From Crateriforma spongiae (GTDB taxonomy: Bacteria; Planctomycetota; Planctomycetia; Pirellulales; Pirellulaceae), in NCBI RefSeq assembly GCF_012290005.1, contig NZ_JAAXMS010000007.1:1-41990 (forward strand): 41,990 nt of DNA, given 5' to 3'. A program made the translations under genes and the position numbers. Below are positions 5,843 to 15,325 of the stretch, in pieces. The notes beneath the pieces were generated by a model. The model saw only the letters and a list, made by a program, of their open reading frames with translations. It was not told the DNA's origin and ran no database searches. Every line of letters starts with the position of its first letter. The first letter of the stretch is position 1.

Positions 5843-6682
5843 TTATTCCGATGCTTGTTGGGCGGCTTCGATCCGATACATTTCGCGCCACGGCAATTGA
5901 ATGCCGCCGTCGATCGTCAGGGTGCTGCCGGTGACGTACTGGCTGTGCGGGTGGCACAGAAAGACCACCGCGTGTCCGATTTCGGCGGGTTCGCCCAGCC
6001 GTCCGGCCGGCAGCGTTTCGGCCTGCTGTTGAAGCGTTTCTTCGGTGAAGAACTTTCGTTCGCCCGGCGTATTGATCCAACCCGGATGGATCGTGTTGAC
6101 GCGAATGTTGTGGCTGATCAGTTCGACCGCCGCCGTCTTGGACATCTGGTCGTTGGCCGCCTTGGCCATGTTGTAGGCCATCGAACCGGGCATGCCGCTG
6201 TGGGCTTGGGGGCTGCTGATGACAACGATGTTGCCGCCCTGGCCACGTCGGACCATCGATATGGCCGCCGCGCGGGTCGTGTAAAACGCGCCCCACATGC
6301 TGACGTCGATGGTTTTTCGAAACCCGTCCAGGTCCGCTTCGATCATCGTTTGGCGATCGCTGTAGGCGGCGTTGCTGACGAAGATGTCCAGGTGGCCCAA
6401 GTGATCCAGCGATTGTTTGATCAGCGTTTCGGCACCTTCCTGACTGGCCAGGTCGGCGCCGACCGCATGAGCCGGGACGTCGTGACGCCGGCAGCCTTCA
6501 ATCGCTTCGGCGGCCTCGGACGCGTGCCGGTGATAGTGAACCACGCATTCGCACCCGGCGGCGGCCAGCTGCTGGACGATGCCCCGGCCGATCCCGCGGG
6601 ACGAACCGGTGACCAGTGCTTTCTTTCCCTCCAGCGGCCGTGCCGGGTCGATCGCAGGCAATTCGTAGGCGGGCGTGGGCAT
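5843..6682 (-). CDS. SDR-family NAD(P)-dependent oxidoreductase
   Basis: A classical short-chain dehydrogenase/reductase of 279 residues, the usual length. The Rossmann cofactor motif TGSSRGIG is at 25-32, the structural NAA at 104-106, the catalytic serine in VISSPQ (about 156-157), and the active-site Y170 and K174 in YNMAK. The C-terminal DGG motif (TIDGG) is also present. The frame stays open to 7267, but that extension overlaps the regulator gene and is not SDR-like; the ATG at 6680-6682, with AGGA upstream, begins the family homology. It points away from the BMC operon and shares its upstream region. It could act on a sugar, polyol or hydroxy-acid linked to that pathway, but the substrate cannot be read from the sequence. 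Confidence 0.9.
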   Translation of the reverse strand: MPTPAYELPAIDPARPLEGKKALVTGSSRGIGRGIVQQLAAAGCECVVHYHRHASEAAEAIEGCRRHDVPAHAVGADLASQEGAETLIKQSLDHLGHLDIFVSNAAYSDRQTMIEADLDGFRKTIDVSMWGAFYTTRAAAISMVRRGQGGNIVVISSPQAHSGMPGSMAYNMAKAANDQMSKTAAVELISHNIRVNTIHPGWINTPGERKFFTEETLQQQAETLPAGRLGEPAEIGHAVVFLCHPHSQYVTGSTLTIDGGIQLPWREMYRIEAAQQASE

Positions 6683-6953
6683 TTTGACAGAAATCCTGCA
6701 AGGCGGGTGATGGCGGCCGGGCGGGGAACAGTCCCGCGTCAAGTCCGAATTATGGCCTTTGCACAGCCTTCGCGACAGCGATCGAGACCCAGAATGCGGT
6801 GAAATGGCGACATGAGAATGGAAGGATTGTCGCACCTTGTGAAGGAAATCGTCAAAAATGAAAAAGTTTTGCCGTGAGCCTGTTGATCTGCTTCTTCGTT
6901 GGAAGCATTCTTTCACCTGAGGGCAGAAAACTTTCACCGGAGGTCCCGCCGTT
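6683..6953. promoter_or_regulatory. Divergent control region of the BMC locus and the SDR gene
   Basis: This 271-base region lies between the minus-strand SDR gene and the DeoR-type regulator that opens the BMC operon. It carries an exact direct repeat CTTTCACC at 6910-6917 and 6931-6938, whose copies start 21 bases (two helical turns) apart and end against the ribosome-binding site GGAGG (6939-6943). That placement would suit an autoregulatory operator. A third copy of the octamer lies at 8523-8530 before the first shell gene. The same octamer also occurs inside the hrpA coding region, so its presence alone is not diagnostic. I could not identify a convincing -35/-10 pair. Confidence 0.45.
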
Positions 6954-7745
6954 TTGGCCACCTTGTCCCAGAATCGCCGCGAAAAGCTTCGCCAGTTGGT
7001 CCAGACGCAGGGTTTTGTGTCGTTGGGCGACTTGGCGTCGACGCTGGAGGTCAGCGAATCGACGGTTCGTCGTGACTTGGAATCGCTGGAACAGGCGGGG
7101 CAGGCGCGTCGGACCCACGGCGGCGTTTTCTGGACCGGCGAAGGCGACAAGATGCCGGTCTTCGCCAACCGCCGGGATGACCGCTGGGCGGCCAAGCGGG
7201 CGATCGGCAAGTTGGCGTCAGAGATGATCGACGACGACGAAACTGTGCTGCTGGACGGTGGCAGCACGACCTACGAGATCGCCCGGCACCTGGTCGGACG
7301 ACCGTTGCAGGTGGTGACCAACAGTTTGCCGGTGGCTTACCTGCTTTCAGCCAGCGATTCGATCGACTTGATCATGATCGGCGGCTGTGTCCGGGGGCGT
7401 ACGGCGGTGGCCATCGGGCCATTGGCCGACTTGATGCTAGCGCAAATCAACGTCTCCAAGGCGTTCTTGTCGGTCGCCGGTGTGACCGAACGAGGCTACT
7501 TCAACAGCGACATGATGCTGGTCGAAAGCGAAAAACAAATGCTGAAGGCTGCCGACGAAGCGATCGTTGTGGCCGACAGCAGCAAGTTCGGTCGCGTCAG
7601 CCTGTCGCGGATGTGCGGATTACAGGACGTGGCCCGAGTGGTCACCGACGATGGCTTGAATTCACAGTGGAAAGGCTGGCTAAAAGCTGCCGGCGTCGAA
7701 CTAGCCTTGGCTAGTGGCGTTTCACGAAGCGGACAGGACGAATGA
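6954..7745 (+). CDS. DeoR/GlpR-family transcriptional regulator of the BMC locus
   Basis: A sugar-metabolism repressor-type protein of 263 residues. The N-terminal winged helix-turn-helix is at about residues 6-58 (REKLRQLV, then [24 protein letters not shown] and the THGG wing). The C-terminal phosphosugar-sensing domain has [15 protein letters not shown] and VVTNSLPVA. The start is TTG at 6954, chosen because GGAGG at 6939-6943 is ideally spaced 10 bases upstream. It is the first gene of the plus-strand BMC operon, and its stop overlaps the pduL start by four bases (ATGA), so the two are translationally coupled. By analogy with the family it should bind the upstream region and release it when a sugar phosphate accumulates. 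The actual effector is unknown. Confidence 0.93.
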
Positions 7746-8479
7746 ACAATCCAACAATCGATCGCAATCAAATCGAGTCGATGGTGCGGGCCGCGATTCG
7801 CGGTGCATCCGGAGCGACAGGTCAATGCACCGGAGCCGCCGTGGCGGAACAGCCGCCCGGTTGGGTCGACGGCAAGCCGAACCTGCGTGTCAGCATTTCC
7901 GCGCGGCACTGTCACTTGACCGACGAACATGTGGAAACCCTGTTCGGCCCCGGAAGTGTGCTGGAGCCTGAAAAGGATCTGTACCAAGACGGCTTTTATG
8001 CGGCCAAGCAGACCGTGATGGTCGTCGGCCCCCGCCGTCGCATGTTGCCCAACGTGCGTGTGCTGGGCCCAACGCGTGGTGCATCGCAAGTGGAATTGGC
8101 GTTCACGGATTCCATTTCGCTGGGCATCGACGCGCCGGTTCGCCATAGCGGCAAGATCGACGGCACGCCCGGTTGCGTGCTGGTCGGCCCCGCCGGCACG
8201 GTCCAGTTGGACCAGGGTGTCATTCGCGCGGCCCGTCACGTCCACATGAACTTTGCCGACGCCGATCATTTCGGTGTGCAAAACGGCGACATGATGCAAC
8301 TGATCGTCCGCAGCCCCGACTGTGGCGTCATCTTTGAAGACGTTCTGGTGCGGGCCGATGAGGCGGCCAAGCTGGAGGTCCACATCGATACCGATGAAGG
8401 CAATGCCTGTCATTTGGATGCGGCGACCGAAATCAAGCTCGTCCGCCAAGGCGGCGGTGCGTGTGGCTGCGGCGGCTGA
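7742..8479 (+). CDS. pduL: PduL-type phosphate acyltransferase of the microcompartment
   Basis: Converts acyl-CoA plus phosphate to acyl-phosphate plus CoA, recycling CoA inside the compartment. Both halves of the PduL fold show their histidine motifs: SARHCHLT (H56, H58) and ARHVHM (H166, H168), expected to bind the two metal ions. The [11 protein letters not shown] segment near the C-terminus is also typical. Residues 8-22 ([15 protein letters not shown]) form a probable amphipathic encapsulation helix, joined by a Gly/Ala-rich linker. An unusual GACGCGG tail ends the protein. It overlaps the regulator stop by four bases and is followed by a strong hairpin before the first shell gene. In this pathway the likely substrate is lactyl-CoA or propionyl-CoA; the choice is inference. 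Confidence 0.95.
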
Positions 8480-8497
8480 GGCCGGCCCGCGGCACCA

Positions 8498-8518
8498 TTG
8501 TCGATCCCCGATCGACAA
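8498..8518 (+). other. Intra-operon stem-loop upstream of the first BMC-H gene
   Basis: TTGTCGAT (8498-8505) and ATCGACAA (8511-8518) form a perfect 8-bp stem around CCCCG. A pyrimidine-rich stretch with TTTTT follows about 14 bases later (near 8532-8536), then the BMC-H1 start at 8572. It may be a partial terminator, an RNA-processing or mRNA-stabilising element, or a regulatory site. Confidence 0.5.
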
Positions 8519-8571
8519 CCATCTTTCACCCCTTTTTCCCTCTCGTTTCGTAAGTTCCTGAAGGCAACAAC

Positions 8572-8868
8572 ATGGCAAAAATCAGCGAAGCGCTCGGCAT
8601 GATTGAAACCAAGGGCTTTGTGTCCTTGGTCGAAGCCACCGACGCAATGATGAAGGCGGCCAACGTCCAATTCCTCGGCTGGGACAAGGTCGGTTCCGGC
8701 CTGGCCAGCGTGTTCGTCACCGGCGATGTCGCTGCGGTCAAAGCGGCCACCGATGCCGGTGCGAGTGCGGCCGGTCGCGTCGGCGAAGTCGTCAGCGTCC
8801 AAGTCATCCCTCGTCCGCATGAAGACCTGGAAAAGGTTTTGAAGCTGCCCGCCGCAGCGAAGAAGTGA
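8572..8868 (+). CDS. BMC-H shell protein 1 (hexameric Pfam00936 domain)
   Basis: A single-domain microcompartment shell protein of 98 residues that should form flat hexamers tiling the shell facets. The family hallmark near the N-terminus is [20 protein letters not shown], followed by KAANV. The pore loop is DKVGSGL (GSG at 41-43), close to the serine-lined pore of PduA-type hexamers, which suggests passage of small polar metabolites. The C-terminal [12 protein letters not shown] is also standard. It is separated from pduL by 92 bases and from the second BMC-H by 133 bases, the longest gap within the BMC operon. Both gaps contain hairpins, which may let this abundant protein be expressed above its neighbours. 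The ribosome-binding site is GAAGG. Confidence 0.97.
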
Positions 8869-8875
8869 TTGGAAC

Positions 8876-8900
8876 AACGCCGACGCTGATTGACGGCGTT
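8876..8900 (+). other. Intra-operon stem-loop downstream of the first BMC-H gene
   Basis: AACGCCG (8876-8882) and CGGCGTT (8894-8900) form a perfect 7-bp stem with an 11-base loop, seven bases after the BMC-H1 stop codon. With no T-run following, it is more likely a 3' stabiliser or attenuator than a full terminator, because the operon continues on the same strand. Confidence 0.45.
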
Positions 8901-9001
8901 CCGGCGGTTCACCACGGTTGCCCGGCCCTGTCACAGACGGCAAAGGCAACGCCCTGCCCTTTTCCTAGAACATTCACGCCAACAACAAATTCAGAATCAT
9001 C

Positions 9002-9271
9002 ATGAATGACGCTATCGGATTGATTGAAACTCGTGGGCTGATCGCCCTGGTCGAAGCCACCGACGCGATGGCCAAAGCCGCCAACGTCGAAATCACCAAA
9101 CGCATCGATTTGGGTGGCGGCTTGGTCACCACGGTCGTCAGCGGCGACGTCGGCAGCGTTCGCGCCGCGGTCGAAGCCGGTGCAACGGCCGCTTCGCAGA
9201 TCGGCGAATTGATCAGCAGCCACATCATTCCCCGGCCCAGCGCGGGGTTGACCGACGCTTTTTTCAAGTAG
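9002..9271 (+). CDS. BMC-H shell protein 2 (hexameric Pfam00936 domain)
   Basis: A second single-domain hexameric shell protein, 89 residues, homologous to BMC-H1. It shows [20 protein letters not shown] and KAANVEI. The pore loop reads DLGGGL (GGG at 38-40) where BMC-H1 has KVGSGL. The pore therefore loses a nearby lysine and has a glycine in place of the serine, so the two hexamers may differ in permeability. The C-terminus is a short SAGLTDAFFK tail. It is part of the same plus-strand operon, 116 bases before the kinase gene. Confidence 0.97.
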   Translation: MNDAIGLIETRGLIALVEATDAMAKAANVEITKRIDLGGGLVTTVVSGDVGSVRAAVEAGATAASQIGELISSHIIPRPSAGLTDAFFK

Positions 9272-9387
9272 GCCGGGGCGGTCGCGATTTTGAACCGACG
9301 ATTCGTGCCGGCATTCAAACACATGTCGATGCATCGGAGCCCGGTTCGCTCGGATCTTTCCAACATCCCATTGACGAGACGGTTCCT

Positions 9388-10581
9388 GTGCTTGTCCTTG
9401 TAGCCAACTTGGGTTCGACCAGTTTCAAGTATCGCCTGTTCAATATGGACAGCGGCGATTGCTTGGCCCGTGGTGCTGTTGAACGCATCGGTGACGATGA
9501 AAGTCGCTGTAGCGTGACGATCGGTGATTGGTCCGACACGATGGTCATGCCGGTGCCCGATCACGGCGTCGCGGTGGCCGCGTGTTTGCAGCAGTTGACC
9601 GATCCCCAGCACGGTGCGATTGCCGAAGCCGGGCAAGTGGCCGCGATCGGTTTCAAAGCCGTTCACGGCGGACGAATGTCGGGCACGTTCGTGGTCGATG
9701 ACGACGTTTTGGACGCGATGGCGGAAATGAACGCGGCGGCGCCCGCGCACAACCCGCCGTACATCGCGGCGATGAAGTTGTTGCGACAGCGGTTCCCCGA
9801 CCTGCCTTTGGTGGCGGCGTTTGAAACTGAGTTTCATCGCACGATTCCCGATTCCCGATCGACGTACGCGATTCCCAAACCATGGACCGATGAATTTCAG
9901 GTCCGGCGCTGGGGATTCCATGGTGCCAGTCACCAATACATCGCCGAGCGGATGGCGGAACTGTTGCAACGCGACGACGCGAAACTGATTTCCTGTCACC
10001 TGGGTGGAAGCAGCAGTTTGACGGCGATTCGTGCCGGCCAAAGCGTCATGACGACGATGGGCATGACGCCCCAAACGGGGCTGCCGCAAAACAATCGGGT
10101 CGGCGATTTCGATCCTTTTGCCCTGCCGCTGATCATGCAACGCACCGGCGATTCGCTGGACGTGACGCTGCAGCGGTTGGCCAGCGAAGGCGGATTGCTG
10201 GGCATCAGCGGACGCAGCGGTGACATTCGCGACTTGGAACAGGCGGCGGATGCCGGCGACACCGATTCGCAGTTGGCATTGGACGTTTACGTCGAAGAGA
10301 TTCGCCGGCACCTCGGCGGCATGATGGTCGCGCTGGGTGGCGTCGATGCGATCGTGTTCACCGGTGGGATCGGCGAAAACAGCCGACGCGTTCGTCGCGG
10401 TGTTTGTGCCGACTTGGAAAGCTTTGGCATCGTCTTGGATGACGCAATGAACGAATCGGCCGACGACGAAACTCAACTGAGTGCCGACGATTCGAAGACT
10501 CAGATTTGGACCGTTCCGACCAATGAAGAATGGATCGTCGCCAAACGTGCGATGAAAGCCTTGGGCCGTCACGCCACTTAA
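9388..10581 (+). CDS. ackA: Acetate kinase-family acyl-phosphate kinase
   Basis: Expected to turn an acyl-phosphate plus ADP into carboxylate plus ATP, the energy-yielding step after PduL. The 397-residue length and ASKHA-fold motifs fit acetate/propionate kinases: NLGSTSFK (N7), VHGG (93-95), HNPP, GFHGASH (H178), NNRVGDFDP (R237) and TNEE near the C-terminus. Compared with the Methanosarcina enzyme, the substrate arginine R91 appears as K90, the catalytic D148 as E146 (FETEFH), and the conserved HLGNG as HLGGS. These changes may mark a different acyl group such as lactyl-phosphate. The start is taken as GTG at 9388, which gives the family-typical N-terminus; no good ribosome-binding site is visible. 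No encapsulation helix is apparent. Confidence 0.92.
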   Translation: MLVLVANLGSTSFKYRLFNMDSGDCLARGAVERIGDDESRCSVTIGDWSDTMVMPVPDHGVAVAACLQQLTDPQHGAIAEAGQVAAIGFKAVHGGRMSGTFVVDDDVLDAMAEMNAAAPAHNPPYIAAMKLLRQRFPDLPLVAAFETEFHRTIPDSRSTYAIPKPWTDEFQVRRWGFHGASHQYIAERMAELLQRDDAKLISCHLGGSSSLTAIRAGQSVMTTMGMTPQTGLPQNNRVGDFDPFALPLIMQRTGDSLDVTLQRLASEGGLLGISGRSGDIRDLEQAADAGDTDSQLALDVYVEEIRRHLGGMMVALGGVDAIVFTGGIGENSRRVRRGVCADLESFGIVLDDAMNESADDETQLSADDSKTQIWTVPTNEEWIVAKRAMKALGRHAT

Positions 10582-10617
10582 CTGTTTCCTCCGTCCCCCG
10601 CATCCCCGTGTCACGGA

Positions 10618-10929
10618 ATGTTCATCGCCAAAGTCACCGGTTCGGTCGTCGCAACACAGAAGGTCGGTTCCATGACCGGCCACAAGTTGCTGGTCGTTGA
10701 ACCCTATCGATTGGAACCGGATCAGCGCAAGTCACTGATCACGACCGGCCGGACGTTCATTGCCGTCGACACGATCGGCGCCGGGGAGAACGATTTTGTG
10801 TTGATCACCCAAGGCAGCAGCGCACGTCTGACGCCGGAGACAAAAACTTTGCCCATCGACGCGGTCATCATCGGCATCGTCGACAAGGTGCACATCGACG
10901 ACCGCGAAGTCAGCGTTGATCGCGACTGA
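10618..10929 (+). CDS. BMC-P shell vertex protein 1 (EutN/CcmL family)
   Basis: A pentameric vertex protein of 103 residues that should cap the corners of the microcompartment shell. The EutN/CcmL pattern is clear: MFIAKVTGSVVATQK at the N-terminus, GHKLLVVEP, FIAVDTIGAGENDFVLITQGSSAR in the middle, and the closing PIDAVIIGIVDKV. It is the longest of the three BMC-P proteins in the locus and keeps the GAGENDxVL loop best. It lies 36 bases after the kinase gene and 70 bases before the aldehyde dehydrogenase on the same strand, so it belongs to the BMC operon. Confidence 0.95.
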   Translation: MFIAKVTGSVVATQKVGSMTGHKLLVVEPYRLEPDQRKSLITTGRTFIAVDTIGAGENDFVLITQGSSARLTPETKTLPIDAVIIGIVDKVHIDDREVSVDRD

Positions 10930-10999
10930 CGCGATCGGTCGCTGATGGCGGCGTTCTTGAACCCGACACCACCACGAAACCGAATCCCAAGTTCCTGAC

Positions 11000-12445
11000 A
11001 TGCAATTCGACGAAAACCTGATCCGCAACGTTGTGTCCCAGGTGCTGGCGGAGGTCGGCCCCATGCCGACCACCGATGGCAGAGTTGCCTTGCGACCCGA
11101 TTCTGCCCCGGCATCGGCGGGCCAGCACGGCATCTTTTACGACGCCGAATCGGCGGTCGCTGCCGCTCGCGAAGCTTTCGAACAACTGCGACGCGGGACA
11201 ATGGAAGACCGCAAGCAGATCATCGAAATCATTCGCCGGATCAGCATCGCCCAGTGCGAAGAACTGGGGCTGATGGAGATGGACGAAACCCAGGTGGGAC
11301 GTCCCGAGCACAAGATCGAAAAGCTTCGCACGCTGGGCGAACGATCGCCGGGTGTGGAGATGTTGGAAACCAAAGCTTTCAGCGGAGACCACGGGCTGGC
11401 AATCATCGAACGCGCCCCGTTCGGCGTCATCGCCGCAATTACTCCCGTCACTCACAGTTTGCCCACCATCACGGGCAACGCCGTCAGCATGATTGCCGGA
11501 GGCAACGCCGTGGTGGTCAACCCGCACCCGTCGGGCAAACGGGTTGCCGCCGAGGGCGTTCGACGATTCAACGAAGCGATCTATCGCGAAGTCGGCATCG
11601 ACAATTTGATTTGCGTCATCGCCGAACCGACGTTGGAATCGGCCGATGCGTTGTTCAAGCATCGTGATGTCGCATTGATCTGTGTCACCGGTGGGCCGGC
11701 CGTCGGACGTGCGGCCCTGAACAGCGGCAAACGGGCGATCGTCGCCGGACCGGGAAACCCGCCGGTGGTGATCGACGAAACCGCCGACTTGGACAATGCG
11801 GCCCGCTGCATCATTCAAGGGGCTTCCTACGACAACAACTTGCTGTGCATTGCGGAAAAGGAAGTCTTCGTCGTCGAAAGCGTTTTCGACGCGATGATGG
11901 AAGCGATGCGTCGTGCCGGTGCGGTTCAGCTGAACGCGGCACAAATCGATGCCTTGACCGCGAAGGCCATCACCACCGCCGGTGACGATCATCACCACGT
12001 CGCCGCCAAAGAATTGATCGGCAAGAACGCGAGTGTTTTGGCCGCCGCCGCGGGAGTCCAGGTTCCCGATTCGACCGAACTCGTCTTTGGCGAAACGGAT
12101 GAAAATCATCCCTTTGTCAGCGTCGAACAGATGATGCCGTTCGTGCCATTCGTCCGCGCCCGTGACGTGGACCACGCGATCGCCCTGGCCAAGCACTACG
12201 AACACGGCTTCCGTCACACCGCGATCATCCACAGTCGCAACGTTCGCAACATGACCAAGATGGGCCGCGAACTGGACACGACGTTGTACATCAAGAACGG
12301 CCCCAGCATGGCTTCGCTGGGATTGGGCGGTGAAGGCTACCTGTCGTTCAGCATCGCCGGTCCGACCGGCGAAGGCGTCACGAACCCGAACACGTTCACC
12401 CGCGAACGCCGCTGCAGCATGATCGACGAACTTCGCGTCATCTGA
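11000..12445 (+). CDS. CoA-acylating aldehyde dehydrogenase of the microcompartment (PduP/EutE type)
   Basis: Oxidises an aldehyde, probably lactaldehyde, with NAD+ and CoA to the acyl-CoA inside the shell. The 481-residue protein matches the PduP/EutE group. The catalytic cysteine is C283 in [11 protein letters not shown]; the cofactor region includes [16 protein letters not shown] (137-152), [11 protein letters not shown] and CVTGGPAVG. The first 20 residues ([16 protein letters not shown]) form a classic encapsulation peptide, with hydrophobics spaced three or four apart, joined by a linker rich in Pro, Ala and Ser. The gene sits between two BMC-P genes. Its product is made into acyl-phosphate by PduL. 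Lactaldehyde is inferred from the adjacent aldolase. Confidence 0.95.
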
Positions 12446-12482
12446 TCAAGCCGTTTCACGCCATCCTGAATTTACCACCAAT

Positions 12483-12740
12483 ATGCAAACCGCCAACGTT
12501 CTCGGATCGACCCACGCGACGATCAAGCATTCCAGCTTGACCGGTCGTCGTTTGGTCATCGTCCAGCCGTTGGGAGTGGGCGGCGACAGCGACGGCCCGC
12601 CGCTGTTGGTGGTCGATTCGTTGGGGACGCGCAAAGGCGATCGCGTGATCATTTGCAGCGACGGCAGCTATGCCCGCGAAGTGACCGGCCACGAACAGAC
12701 ACCGGCTCGCTGGACCGTGATGGGGATCTGCGATGACTGA
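12483..12740 (+). CDS. BMC-P shell vertex protein 2 (EutN/CcmL family)
   Basis: A compact pentameric vertex protein of 85 residues. It shows the family layout: ANVLGSTHATIKHSSLTGRRLVIVQPL, LLVVDSLGTRKGDRVIICSDGSYAR, and a terminal WTVMGICDD. It lacks the final extension seen in the first BMC-P. Its stop codon overlaps the next gene by eight bases (ATGACTGA at 12733-12740), so the two are translationally coupled. It is one of three BMC-P paralogues in this operon, as in other PVM-type loci. Confidence 0.93.
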   Translation: MQTANVLGSTHATIKHSSLTGRRLVIVQPLGVGGDSDGPPLLVVDSLGTRKGDRVIICSDGSYAREVTGHEQTPARWTVMGICDD

Positions 12741-13059
12741 TTCCCATGTCACCACGATCGACGAAGCCTTCATTCAACGGGTCGCCCAATTGGTGATTCG
12801 TCGTTTGGCCCAAATGCAATTGGCCAACATGACGGCGCCGGTTGCGGACGCGGCACGCCCCGCCCCGCCGCCACAAGCATCATGCGACGAAAAGGTCGTC
12901 ACCGATGAAGCGGTGGCCGGTCGACCGGTGGGAACCACATTGGTCATCCGAAGCGACGCGATCGTGACACCGCTGGCCAAAGACACCGCACGGCAACGTC
13001 AGATTCGGCTGGTCCGCGGCGACCAGCCCGACGGGAATAAAGCAAAGGCGACGTCATGA
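12733..13059 (+). CDS. Small BMC-associated protein with encapsulation-like helix and TP-x-A-x-D motif
   Basis: No named family is assigned. The 108-residue product has two parts joined by a Pro/Ala linker (about 34-50). Residues 9-29 (IDEAFIQRVAQLVIRRLAQM) form an amphipathic helix like the encapsulation peptides of the neighbouring enzymes. Residues 54-96 read KVVTDEAV..GTTLVIRSDAIVTPLAKD..R.RQIRLVRG. This resembles a small segment found in several BMC-linked proteins, for example the N-terminal part of EutT (G-x-x-I-x-L-P, then LTPSAR). The gene overlaps the preceding BMC-P by eight bases and the following BMC-P by four, so it is made together with two vertex proteins. A role as scaffold or cargo adaptor is a guess; no catalytic residues are evident. 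Confidence 0.85.
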   Translation: MTDSHVTTIDEAFIQRVAQLVIRRLAQMQLANMTAPVADAARPAPPPQASCDEKVVTDEAVAGRPVGTTLVIRSDAIVTPLAKDTARQRQIRLVRGDQPDGNKAKATS

Positions 13060-13334
13060 AGCTGGCACGAACCATCGGCACCGTCACGCTTTCGCGATCG
13101 CATCCGGCGATGAAGGCCGCACGGCTTCGCTGTGTGGAGATCGTCGATTCGGTCCAGCGAATCGAAACGCAGCCCCTGGGTGGCGACACCGTGGTGGCTT
13201 GGGATTTATGTGGCTGTGGCGACGGCGATTTGGTCGCCCTGGCCGAAGGCCCCGAAGCCGCCCAGCCGTTTCGGCCCGACGTCAAACCGCTGGACGCATC
13301 GATCGTCGCAATCCTGGACGAAGTCGATTTGTAA
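13056..13334 (+). CDS. BMC-P shell vertex protein 3 (EutN/CcmL family)
   Basis: The third pentameric vertex protein, 92 residues. Recognisable segments are LARTIGTVTLSRSHPAMKAARLRCVEIV, VAWDLCGCGDGDLVALAEGPEAA and LDASIVAILDEVDL. The loop carries a Cys-Gly-Cys pair (LCGCGDGD) not seen in the other two BMC-P proteins. Its ATG overlaps the stop of the previous small gene (ATGA at 13056-13059). It ends 63 bases before the aldolase gene. Having three different pentamers suggests heterogeneous vertices or specialised roles; the sequence does not show which. Confidence 0.92.
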   Translation: MKLARTIGTVTLSRSHPAMKAARLRCVEIVDSVQRIETQPLGGDTVVAWDLCGCGDGDLVALAEGPEAAQPFRPDVKPLDASIVAILDEVDL

Positions 13335-13397
13335 ACGCACACCAAGACCAATCAAGAATCACTGACCACTGAGTTTCACCAACCCCCGGCACCTGTC

Positions 13398-14261
13398 ATG
13401 CAAAACGTTCACAAAATCAAGCAAGACATTTGCGACATCGGTCGTCGCATCTACAACCGCCAATTCGCCGCGGCCAACGACGGCAACATCACGGTGCGTA
13501 TCAGCGAGAACGAAGTGCTGTGTACTCCGACCTTGCACTGCAAGGGCTTTTTGAAGCCCGATGACATTGCAACGGTCGACATGACAGGCAAGCAGATCTC
13601 TGGTCGCAAAAAGCGGTCCAGCGAAGCGTTGTTGCACATCGAGATCTATAAGAACCGCCCGGATATCAAGAGCGTTGTGCACTGTCACCCGCCACACGCC
13701 ACCGCGTTTGCCATCGCTCGCGAACCGATCCCACAGTGCATCTTGCCGGAAGTCGAAGTCTTCCTGGGTGACGTTCCGATCACCAAGTATGAAACGCCCG
13801 GTGGTCAAGAGTTTGCCGACACGATCATCCCGTTCGTTAGCAAGACCAACGTGATCATCTTGGCGAACCACGGCACGGTCAGCTACGGCGAAACGGTCGA
13901 ACAGGCGTACTGGTGGACGGAGATTCTGGATTCCTATTGCCGGATGTTGATGCTGGCCAAGCAACTGGGCAACGTTTCGTTCTTGACCGCCGGCAAGAGC
14001 CAAGAACTGTTGGATCTGAAGGGCAAATGGGGATTCTCCGATCCACGGAACACCGACGAGTACAAAGACTGTGACATCTGTGCCAATGACATCTTCCGTG
14101 AGTCGTGGGCGGCATCCGACGTCCAGCGTCGCGCGTTCCCCGCACCGCCGCCGATCAAGGAAACCACCAAGCAAGTCGCCGATGCCAACGGCATGGACGA
14201 AGACCAGTTGGTGCAACTGATCACCAACGAAGTTGTCCGCCAGTTGCAGTCGGCTTCCTAG
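13398..14261 (+). CDS. Class II aldolase/adducin-family lactaldehyde-forming aldolase of the microcompartment
   Basis: Predicted to cleave L-fuculose-1-phosphate and/or L-rhamnulose-1-phosphate into DHAP and L-lactaldehyde, the signature step of PVM-type compartments. The zinc ligands are H95 and H97 (VHCHPPHA) and H158 (LANHG), with catalytic E76 in RSSEALLH. All four are offset by three from E. coli FucA (E73, H92, H94, H155). NDGNITVR near the N-terminus is the phosphate-binding segment. The 287-residue chain has a C-terminal extension ending DEDQLVQLITNEVVRQLQSAS, an amphipathic helix typical of an encapsulation peptide. The extension before it holds three cysteines (C181, C225, C228). 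The gene sits between a BMC-P gene and the dehydrogenase. The upstream kinase and isomerase are not in the window. Confidence 0.93.
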   Translation: MQNVHKIKQDICDIGRRIYNRQFAAANDGNITVRISENEVLCTPTLHCKGFLKPDDIATVDMTGKQISGRKKRSSEALLHIEIYKNRPDIKSVVHCHPPHATAFAIAREPIPQCILPEVEVFLGDVPITKYETPGGQEFADTIIPFVSKTNVIILANHGTVSYGETVEQAYWWTEILDSYCRMLMLAKQLGNVSFLTAGKSQELLDLKGKWGFSDPRNTDEYKDCDICANDIFRESWAASDVQRRAFPAPPPIKETTKQVADANGMDEDQLVQLITNEVVRQLQSAS

Positions 14262-14389
14262 TCACATTCACGGTCCTGCCGCGCGGCCACCGGTTGCGTC
14301 GTGGCATCGTTCATCTGCCCGCGGCGGCGCACGCCATCCGCGGCCTCTGTCGAATCCATTCATCCCTTTGATTCCCCCACAGCGTATCC

Positions 14390-15325
14390 ATGAAAGTTTC
14401 GATTATCGGTGGCGGCGGTTTGGTCGGTTCCTGCGCCGCGTATGCTTTGCAATGCGGCGGCCTGGCCAGCGAAATCGCTTTGTTGGACGTCAACCAAGAA
14501 TTGGCGGTTGGTCAGGCGCTGGACCTGCAGCACGGCGGCCCTAGCGTGGCGGATCAACGGATCGCTGGCGGAGGCTACGAGCACATTCCCGACAGTGACA
14601 TCATCTGCATCACCGCGGGCTTGCGTCGAAAGCCCGACGAATCGCGTTTGGATCTGATCAATCGCAACACCGATTTGTTCGTTCAGATCGTTCGCGATGT
14701 GAAGGCGGCCGGTCCCAAGTCGTCGGCCATCGTGTTGGTCGTCAGCAATCCGGTGGACATCCTGACCTACGTCGCCGCCCAAATGCTGGACCTGCCCGAA
14801 TCACAAGTCATCGGGCTGGGCACGCAACTGGACACGATCCGATTCTGCAGTCTGATCGCAGAAGAATTGAACGCACCGCCGACCCAGACTCGGGCGCTGA
14901 TTTTGGGTGAACACGGCGAATCCATGGTGCCGATTTGGAGTAGTGCGACGATCGCCGGATTGCCGCTGGACAAGTACCCGGGGTGGAACCCCACGTTGGC
15001 GAACAAGTTGTTCACACGCACCCGGGGCAGCGGCGCGGAAGTGATCAAAAGAAAAGGTGGCGCGGGATTCGCAGTGGGGATTGCCATCCGTGACTGCATC
15101 GATGCGGTCATTTTGAATCAAAACCGCGTCATGCCGGTGAGCAGCATTCAAAATGGTTGTTACGGTATACGTGATGTCGCTCTTTCGGTGCCGACGGTCC
15201 TGGGACGTCAGGGTGTGGTCGATCGGATGGAGATCGATCTTTGGCCGAAAGAAGTCCAGGGCTTGCGACAAAGCGGCGCGTCATTAAGAAAGACGCTCGA
15301 ATTGGTGATGCAACGGGTAGCCTAG
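14390..15325 (+). CDS. Lactate/malate dehydrogenase-family NAD-dependent dehydrogenase of the BMC locus
   Basis: A 311-residue 2-hydroxyacid dehydrogenase of the LDH/MDH superfamily, last gene of the BMC operon. The NAD-binding GGGGLVG is at 7-13, and D33 ends beta-2, favouring NAD. Catalytic residues are R86 (R109 equivalent), N120, D148 and R151 in LDTIRF, and H175 in GEHGES. The substrate-selecting residue, Q102 in lactate dehydrogenases, aligns with R80 in AGLRRKPDESR, as in malate dehydrogenases. It is usually described as the enzyme that regenerates NAD+ for the aldehyde dehydrogenase or handles the lactate product. The arginine makes a dicarboxylate substrate such as oxaloacetate possible. 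No encapsulation helix is seen. The next gene is convergent. Confidence 0.9.
   Translation: MKVSIIGGGGLVGSCAAYALQCGGLASEIALLDVNQELAVGQALDLQHGGPSVADQRIAGGGYEHIPDSDIICITAGLRRKPDESRLDLINRNTDLFVQIVRDVKAAGPKSSAIVLVVSNPVDILTYVAAQMLDLPESQVIGLGTQLDTIRFCSLIAEELNAPPTQTRALILGEHGESMVPIWSSATIAGLPLDKYPGWNPTLANKLFTRTRGSGAEVIKRKGGAGFAVGIAIRDCIDAVILNQNRVMPVSSIQNGCYGIRDVALSVPTVLGRQGVVDRMEIDLWPKEVQGLRQSGASLRKTLELVMQRVA

Follow-up and report, generated by a model that had tools for sequence, protein, structure and literature searches.

At positions 6954 to 15325 of the DNA stretch analysed here, twelve genes in the same orientation encode a bacterial microcompartment (BMC) of the PVM type (Planctomycetes/Verrucomicrobia), and the locus raises the question of which substrates such an organelle would handle, of what its shell would be built and how its NADH would be re-oxidised. 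The stretch, hereafter the window, spans bases 1 to 41,990 of contig 7 in a genome of 6.87 Mb (97.8% complete), whose host is taken as one of the Pirellulaceae, with Stieleria, Rhodopirellula, Rubripirellula and Neorhodopirellula as closest named relatives. Our analysis leads to the reading, to which we give a probability of roughly 85%, that the operon encodes a PVM metabolosome for L-fucose and L-rhamnose, the feeding enzymes being encoded elsewhere in the genome. The reading is based on the domain content of the operon, the gene order shared with 80 loci and with Planctopirus limnophila and an aromatic residue of PduL, as well as on the isomerases, the rhamnulokinase-like kinase, the glycosidase neighbours of the isomerases, the LutB/LUD genes present in the same genome and the Arg102 of the dehydrogenase.

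All twelve frames were found to be open and on the plus strand in an ORF check of the window. They follow each other in the order DeoR, PduL, BMC-H1, BMC-H2, acetate-kinase homologue, BMC-P1, CoA-acylating aldehyde dehydrogenase (AldDH), BMC-P2, a small protein, BMC-P3, class II aldolase and a protein of the lactate/malate dehydrogenase (LDH/MDH) family (Table 1). Eleven of the products match their Pfam families above the curated cut-off, the exception being the small protein, and three gene pairs (deoR/pduL, BMC-P2/small and small/BMC-P3) overlap by 4 to 8 bases, as in a coupled operon. The PVM core has been defined as AldDH, PduL, an acetate-kinase homologue, a DeoR regulator and an LDH/MDH homologue (PMC4207490; other literature drawn on here comprises PMC11958385, PMC4784909, PMC8857213, PMC8217296, PMC11596606, PMC8706344, PMC12078418, PMC12628686, PMC3035269 and the papers cited below). 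According to the profile matches this core is complete in the operon. The twelve co-directional genes of an earlier annotation of the locus, hereafter the original prediction, were thus right in family, place and strand, and its assignment to the PVM type is borne out by the signature aldolase, the core enzymes and the aromatic PduL residue, all of which are present. Sequence comparison confirms the region as a well-formed PVM-type BMC operon, of a kind described before in bacteria related to this one.

When 84,980 species genomes were searched with the AldDH, 167 relatives were obtained, and the best 80 of these 167, all of which bear planctomycete names, were analysed. The AldDH is 70 to 84% identical to that of other planctomycete pvm operons (Stieleria, Rhodopirellula, Rubripirellula, Neorhodopirellula and others). 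With the small gene omitted as fast-evolving, the other eleven genes keep the order and direction of the window wherever the 80 loci are readable: the set is complete in 53 loci and truncated by the end of a contig or stretch in 22, and five have no dehydrogenase match past the aldolase. Chance or mis-annotation is ruled out, because the order recurs without rearrangement in the 80 loci, 53 of them complete. BMC domains were found in 130 of 149 family genomes by a PF00936 search, and five BMC-H-pair loci that were fetched (L092-L096) all correspond to pvm operons. BMC genes are standard equipment in the family, and an operon like this one is unremarkable in its group.

The pvm operon, or PVM BMC, of Planctopirus (Planctomyces) limnophila is reportedly the subject of work by Erbilgin et al. 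from 2014. Twelve of its genes have the same order and direction as those of the window, and the two operons also share an aromatic residue at the PduL position discussed below and the Arg at the specificity position of the dehydrogenase. The identity with the planctomycete fucose/rhamnose BMC originally predicted therefore stands for these twelve genes, but P. limnophila possesses a 13th gene between BMC-P1 and AldDH (L172, reverse complement 8236-8751), coding for a protein of 171 amino acids that looks membrane-like by eye, and its small protein has 286 amino acids as against 108 in the window. There is no room for such a 171-residue gene in the window nor in any of 79 measured BMC-P1/AldDH gaps. 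The BMC-H2 frame of P. limnophila also has a longer N-terminus than that of the window. The BMC of P. limnophila is reported to degrade fucose and rhamnose, and the species, for which there are genetic tools (PMC11958385), is reported to use both sugars.

In an alignment of PduL to the structure 5cuo, the Gln that follows the conserved Gln-Pro-Gly corresponds to Phe85 of the window. In the PduL structure paper, the counterpart of Gln77 of the R. palustris PduL is given as Tyr for P. limnophila and as Tyr or Phe for the majority of PVM PduLs, and Tyr or Phe at this position is tied to lactyl-CoA. The published Tyr of P. limnophila PduL falls exactly in the Phe85 column, which supports placing Phe85 at the Gln77 position. 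The column contains 58 Phe, 5 Tyr, 1 His and 1 Ala in 65 rows, window included (for this and the following residue counts, orthologues had to cover at least 60% of the query). Cys283 of the AldDH is shared by all 81 rows. E76, H95, H97 and H158 of the aldolase, which also matched FucA structures, are invariant in 75 of 75, and we presume these four residues to be the zinc ligands, as in E. coli FucA.

The following pathway would fit these data. Enzymes from other parts of the genome would isomerise and phosphorylate L-fucose and L-rhamnose, and the class II aldolase, taken into the shell via its C-terminal tail, would cleave the resulting ketose-1-phosphate to give dihydroxyacetone phosphate and L-lactaldehyde. 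The lactaldehyde would be retained by a shell made of two BMC-H and three BMC-P proteins without BMC-T, converted to lactyl-CoA by AldDH and then to lactyl-phosphate by PduL, with recycling of CoA, after which the acetate-kinase homologue would release lactate and ATP; the lactate would be oxidised outside the shell, probably by a LutB/LutC-type complex. The last enzyme would regenerate NAD+, probably by converting oxaloacetate to malate, and may act in the cytosol, as it has no evident encapsulation tail. Through a single upstream operator, DeoR would keep the operon repressed as long as neither the sugar nor an early intermediate is available. We infer the substrates, the encapsulation, the repression and the malate step from these comparisons.

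The feeding enzymes, which had been expected outside the locus, were indeed found on other contigs. The genome contains an L-fucose isomerase (FucI; NF008220, 1009.6 bits, cut-off 775) as well as two L-rhamnose isomerases (RhaA; 691.7 and 686.6 bits, cut-off 572). FucI adjoins two alpha-L-fucosidases, with sulfatases nearby; one RhaA gene is one ORF away from an alpha-L-rhamnosidase, and the other is near sulfatases and an AraC-type regulator. Four strong FGGY kinases are encoded by the genome, of which one is rhamnulokinase-like, although its TIGR02627 score of 470.8 bits is below the cut-off of 527.95. The other three, scoring as glycerol kinase and xylulokinase (L115, L116) and as ribulokinase (L103), were discounted on their family scores as candidates for a rhamnulokinase or fuculokinase. 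No FucK equivalog was present among the four strong hits (a fifth FGGY hit is weak), and the rhamnulokinase-like enzyme might serve both sugars. Profile searches gave no FucI, RhaA or FGGY-kinase match inside the window, which rules out isomerase or kinase genes there. The genome also has a LutB-like gene (438.8 bits for a cut-off of 444.8) with an adjoining LUD-domain gene.

Several observations weigh against this assignment. The aldolase reaches the cut-off of no equivalog among the matches listed, and in NCBIfam the top-scoring model for it is 3-oxo-tetronate 4-phosphate decarboxylase, with FucA coming after. The proposed lactate kinase step would depend on an acetate-kinase homologue. Isomerase genes are not significantly commoner in genomes with a BMC: FucI, RhaA or RhaI was found in 9 of the 22 family genomes with a BMC and in 6 of the 19 without (Fisher p 0.75), these 41 genomes having been picked by BMC status, some of the BMC-negative ones being fragmented or incomplete (e.g. 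G105, G121, G132), and FucI/RhaI matches with E >1e-10 having been counted as absent. Gene content alone is therefore no proof of the sugars. PduL, AldDH and the small protein have N-terminal helical tails resembling encapsulation peptides, and the aldolase has a C-terminal one; the tails are found again in relatives, which suggests encapsulation of the tailed enzymes. Ranking by amphipathic moment did not separate these tails from ordinary helices, however: the AldDH N-terminus ranks at just 0.159, whereas the C-termini of the acetate-kinase homologue (0.029) and of the dehydrogenase (0.024) rank as high as the better tails. Finally, the dehydrogenase is not universal. In loci L027 and L082, 7.7 and 8.2 kb of sequence follow the aldolase without any match to it; by this evidence they really lack it, so that NAD+ regeneration is apparently possible in its absence; three more (L039, L063, L065) gave no match, but are doubtful cases, with just 1.0 to 1.3 kb left past the aldolase.

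The aldolase might also act mainly on another sugar phosphate, such as a pentulose-1-phosphate or 5-deoxyribulose-1-phosphate, so that the organelle would handle glycolaldehyde or acetaldehyde. Class II aldolases are generally promiscuous (PMC4207490), and with the missing equivalog match and the 13 of 22 BMC-positive relatives that have neither FucI nor RhaA nor RhaI this gives such a substrate some footing. We nevertheless consider it improbable, because P. limnophila is reported to degrade fucose and rhamnose through its BMC though it has neither FucI nor RhaA, because the genome of the window has both enzymes, near fucosidases and a rhamnosidase, and because the aromatic PduL residue has been tied to lactyl-CoA. 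In the P. limnophila genome (G219), neither PF02952 nor PF06134 gave a match, whereas another genome matched in the RhaA run at E 1.4e-210. The absence of FucI and RhaA is thus no argument against fucose and rhamnose, both of which P. limnophila is reported to use without them; that species should possess a different kind of isomerase, and no report addressing this gap was among the papers listed by literature searches.

With fucose and rhamnose retained as the probable substrates, the composition of the shell can be considered. The prediction that it contains no BMC-T and would consist of hexamers and pentamers only holds for the whole genome: a PF00936 search of all contigs of the 97.8% complete assembly gave two matches, both of them the BMC-H genes of the operon, and BMC-T was not found anywhere, which rules out a BMC-T hidden at another locus. 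A genome of the same genus (G011, one contig) likewise has just two BMC domains. In the operon the BMC-P genes outnumber the BMC-H genes, three to two. Other genomes of the family, in contrast, often have extra BMC domains, in fetched cases as a stand-alone BMC-T gene besides the pvm operon. More than two BMC domain matches are present in 73 of the 130 BMC-positive family genomes. Seven second BMC loci were fetched, in which tblastn detected a two-domain BMC-T ORF in four and one domain at threshold in three; the stand-alone BMC-T genes away from the pvm operon are at L085:8081-8737, L086:8166-8867, L088:8136-8900 and L091:7818-8525. An extra BMC-H-like match (51% identity) lies downstream of the operon at L032:17145.

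The operon also resembles GRM5 or fucosome-type loci in its class II aldolase, DeoR regulator and deoxy-sugar substrate. Those loci are reported to use a glycyl radical enzyme and a route via propanediol, whereas profile searches gave no glycyl radical enzyme match among the twelve genes of the window.

The last enzyme of the operon had been described as an LDH/MDH homologue, which is right as to the family, but the residue at the specificity position is of the malate type and not the Gln of LDH. In this superfamily, Arg102 is typical of canonical MDH and Gln102 of canonical LDH (PMC4109310). Arg80 of the window enzyme aligns with the Gln of LDH 1a5z at position 102. An Arg occupies this position in 66 of 66 rows, that is in the window and 65 of the 80 loci; hits of fewer than 200 residues (the second match of L033, and L038) were left out, as were the 14 loci without a match, of which nine are cut off, two are L027 and L082 and three are the doubtful cases mentioned above. 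The same is true of 48 of 48 rows of a class-wide set overlapping the first (L119 is the window, and L145/L149 and L108/L117 represent one gene each), for 47 of which the fetched stretch also matches the aldolase, and of the dehydrogenases of P. limnophila and a relative. A GEHG motif is present in all 66 rows and an LDTIR-type motif recurs with minor variants; we take these to be the catalytic His and Arg motifs. The window enzyme thus has the Arg102 and motifs of an MDH instead of the Gln102 of an LDH proper, and by its specificity residue looks malate-type. Among the papers listed by literature searches, which did not include the original P. limnophila pvm paper, none was found to mention Arg102 of the pvm dehydrogenase.

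The enzyme was also compared with other members of the family. The genome of the window encodes one housekeeping MDH besides the pvm enzyme, whereas the BMC-negative genomes tested (n=5) have a single LDH/MDH family member each. Housekeeping MDHs have Arg102 and share only 31 to 33% identity with the pvm enzyme. Two paralogues outside pvm operons, from two other planctomycete genomes, have Gln102 and 38 to 40% identity to it, and resemble genuine LDHs. The top match in the PDB, 1y6j, carries the label LDH, yet has an Arg at position 102. A C. cellulolyticum enzyme with this Arg was first predicted to be an LDH and proved to be the main MDH of that species, although with overlapping specificity (PMC3268733).

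We tentatively propose, while giving it somewhat less than even odds, that the NADH formed by AldDH in the PVM organelle is re-oxidised by a dedicated, operon-encoded MDH reducing oxaloacetate to malate, a BMC-linked paralogue beside the housekeeping MDH, and not by a lactate or alcohol dehydrogenase. That the last enzyme of the same organelle is instead a true LDH, acting on lactate and pyruvate, or reduces lactaldehyde to 1,2-propanediol, seems rather unlikely, although its sequence is overall nearer to the LDH models (278 bits for TIGR01771 as against 213 for MalateDH_bact), which speaks against the malate step, as do its closer similarity to the Gln102 paralogues than to housekeeping MDHs and the two loci that lack the gene. 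Axen et al. predict that the pvm dehydrogenase gene supplies an alcohol-dehydrogenase function, one other paper labels a pvm-locus enzyme L-lactate dehydrogenase, and a review reports that P. limnophila produces lactate and 1,2-propanediol. Against these stand the Arg, never Gln, in every pvm row, the superfamily rule and the clostridial precedent, as well as the LutB/LutC-like genes through which the host could handle lactate.

The small protein is the most variable product of the operon. In the window it has 108 amino acids, an N-terminal amphipathic helix and a VTPxxxDE-type motif, and the only profile match was to a PduM/PDU_like tail (23.5 bits for a cut-off of 27). Its length is bimodal in the 74 readable loci, 19 of which have a form of at most 145 amino acids and 55 a form of 195 to 382, the window thus differing from most other planctomycete pvm operons, in which it has at least 195; not all starts are certain, a few frames are mis-called, and loci without both BMC-P2 and BMC-P3 hits, as well as L023, L062 and L068, flagged for order, are not included in these counts. 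The long form has an extra C-terminal domain. Of the 52 long forms that remain when L081 (mis-called frame) and L035 and L065 (more than 290 amino acids) are excluded, 35 were aligned, and PF02502 (LacAB/RpiB) was detected at E <=0.1 in 12 of these 35, at best with 7.7e-5; for L070 it scored 20.7 bits as against 24.7. The predicted model of L070 (mean pLDDT 86.8) superimposes on E. coli RpiB (2vvr) with a TM-score of 0.80 by target length and an E of 1.2e-7, and by this model the domain has a divergent RpiB fold. The catalytic motif of RpiB is of the CGTG type; its residues were not visible by eye in the alignment of the 35 long forms, so the domain is probably not an isomerase. SPU loci likewise combine an RpiB-fold protein with an aldolase, a likeness seen here solely in the long-form relatives, but these loci are reported to use a DeoC aldolase and an RpiB isomerase, whereas the RpiB-like domain of the pvm operons is divergent, fused to the small protein, shortened in several close relatives and missing from the window. 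The lack of a domain found in most relatives could point to a decayed, non-working relic, but the open state of all twelve frames, the invariant AldDH Cys and four aldolase positions, and the other short-form loci, which retain the whole gene set in order, make this extremely improbable.

As to regulation, 28 aligned sequences preceding deoR share conserved half-sites of the type TTTCTNTCA / TGANAGAAA. The operator pattern, built from the window's version, has its sole genome site within two mismatches at 6908-6935, the reversed control giving 0 forward and 1 reverse hits. The specificity of the candidate operator is modest, since the pattern was made from the window's own site and the reversed control also hits once. 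As no second site exists in the genome within two mismatches, fucI and rhaA could not be linked to the same regulator. In P. limnophila the homologous regulator/promoter pair is described as responding to rhamnose, the regulator being a likely repressor. Promoter and terminator scans gave no more sites than in shuffled sequences.

The divergent SDR gene upstream of the operon is kept in 14 of the 54 loci with at least 2 kb of upstream sequence, all 14 belonging to the closest relatives. Its nearest models are broad ones of the glucose 1-dehydrogenase/FabG kind, none of which reaches the cut-off among the matches listed, and the gene is probably not part of the organelle. Downstream of the operon, distant AldDH-like matches (22 to 23%) were seen at L041:15968 and L043:15096, and L033:6658 is a 36-residue piece resembling the dehydrogenase, not a second gene copy.

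Table 1. Features of the pvm operon and its upstream region, in window coordinates
Feature	Position	Strand	Basis
DeoR-family regulator (PvmA homologue)	6954..7745	+	PF08220, PF00455
PduL phosphotransacylase, N-terminal encapsulation-peptide-like helix, Phe85 at Gln77 position	7742..8479	+	PF06130, NF011652
BMC-H shell protein 1	8572..8868	+	PF00936, 95 bits
BMC-H shell protein 2	9002..9271	+	PF00936, 92.6 bits
Acetate-kinase family enzyme (AckA)	9388..10581	+	PF00871; TIGR00016, 352 bits, above cut-off
BMC-P shell pentamer 1	10618..10929	+	PF03319
CoA-acylating aldehyde dehydrogenase (AldDH), N-terminal encapsulation-peptide-like segment	11000..12445	+	PF00171; NF011927, 629 bits
BMC-P shell pentamer 2	12483..12740	+	PF03319
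Small protein, short form, 108 aa	12733..13059	+	Weak PDU_like/PduM tail match
BMC-P shell pentamer 3	13056..13334	+	PF03319
Class II aldolase, signature enzyme, C-terminal encapsulation-peptide-like helix	13398..14261	+	PF00596, 165 bits
LDH/MDH-family 2-hydroxyacid dehydrogenase, Arg80 at specificity position 102	14390..15325	+	PF00056/PF02866
Candidate operator TTCTTTC-N7-G-NN-AGAAA-N-CTTTC upstream of deoR	6908..6935	+	Conserved half-sites
SDR-family oxidoreductase, divergent neighbour of the operon	5843..6682	-	PF13561/PF00106

Two points of the accepted scheme are left unexplained by the operon, namely the re-oxidation of NADH with a malate-type enzyme and the feeding isomerase in P. limnophila and the many relatives without FucI and RhaA. 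The malate step, if true, would tie the organelle to the tricarboxylic acid cycle and depart from the accepted metabolosome scheme. The variable small protein and the stand-alone BMC-T of relatives provide natural variants with which the roles of those parts may be probed.

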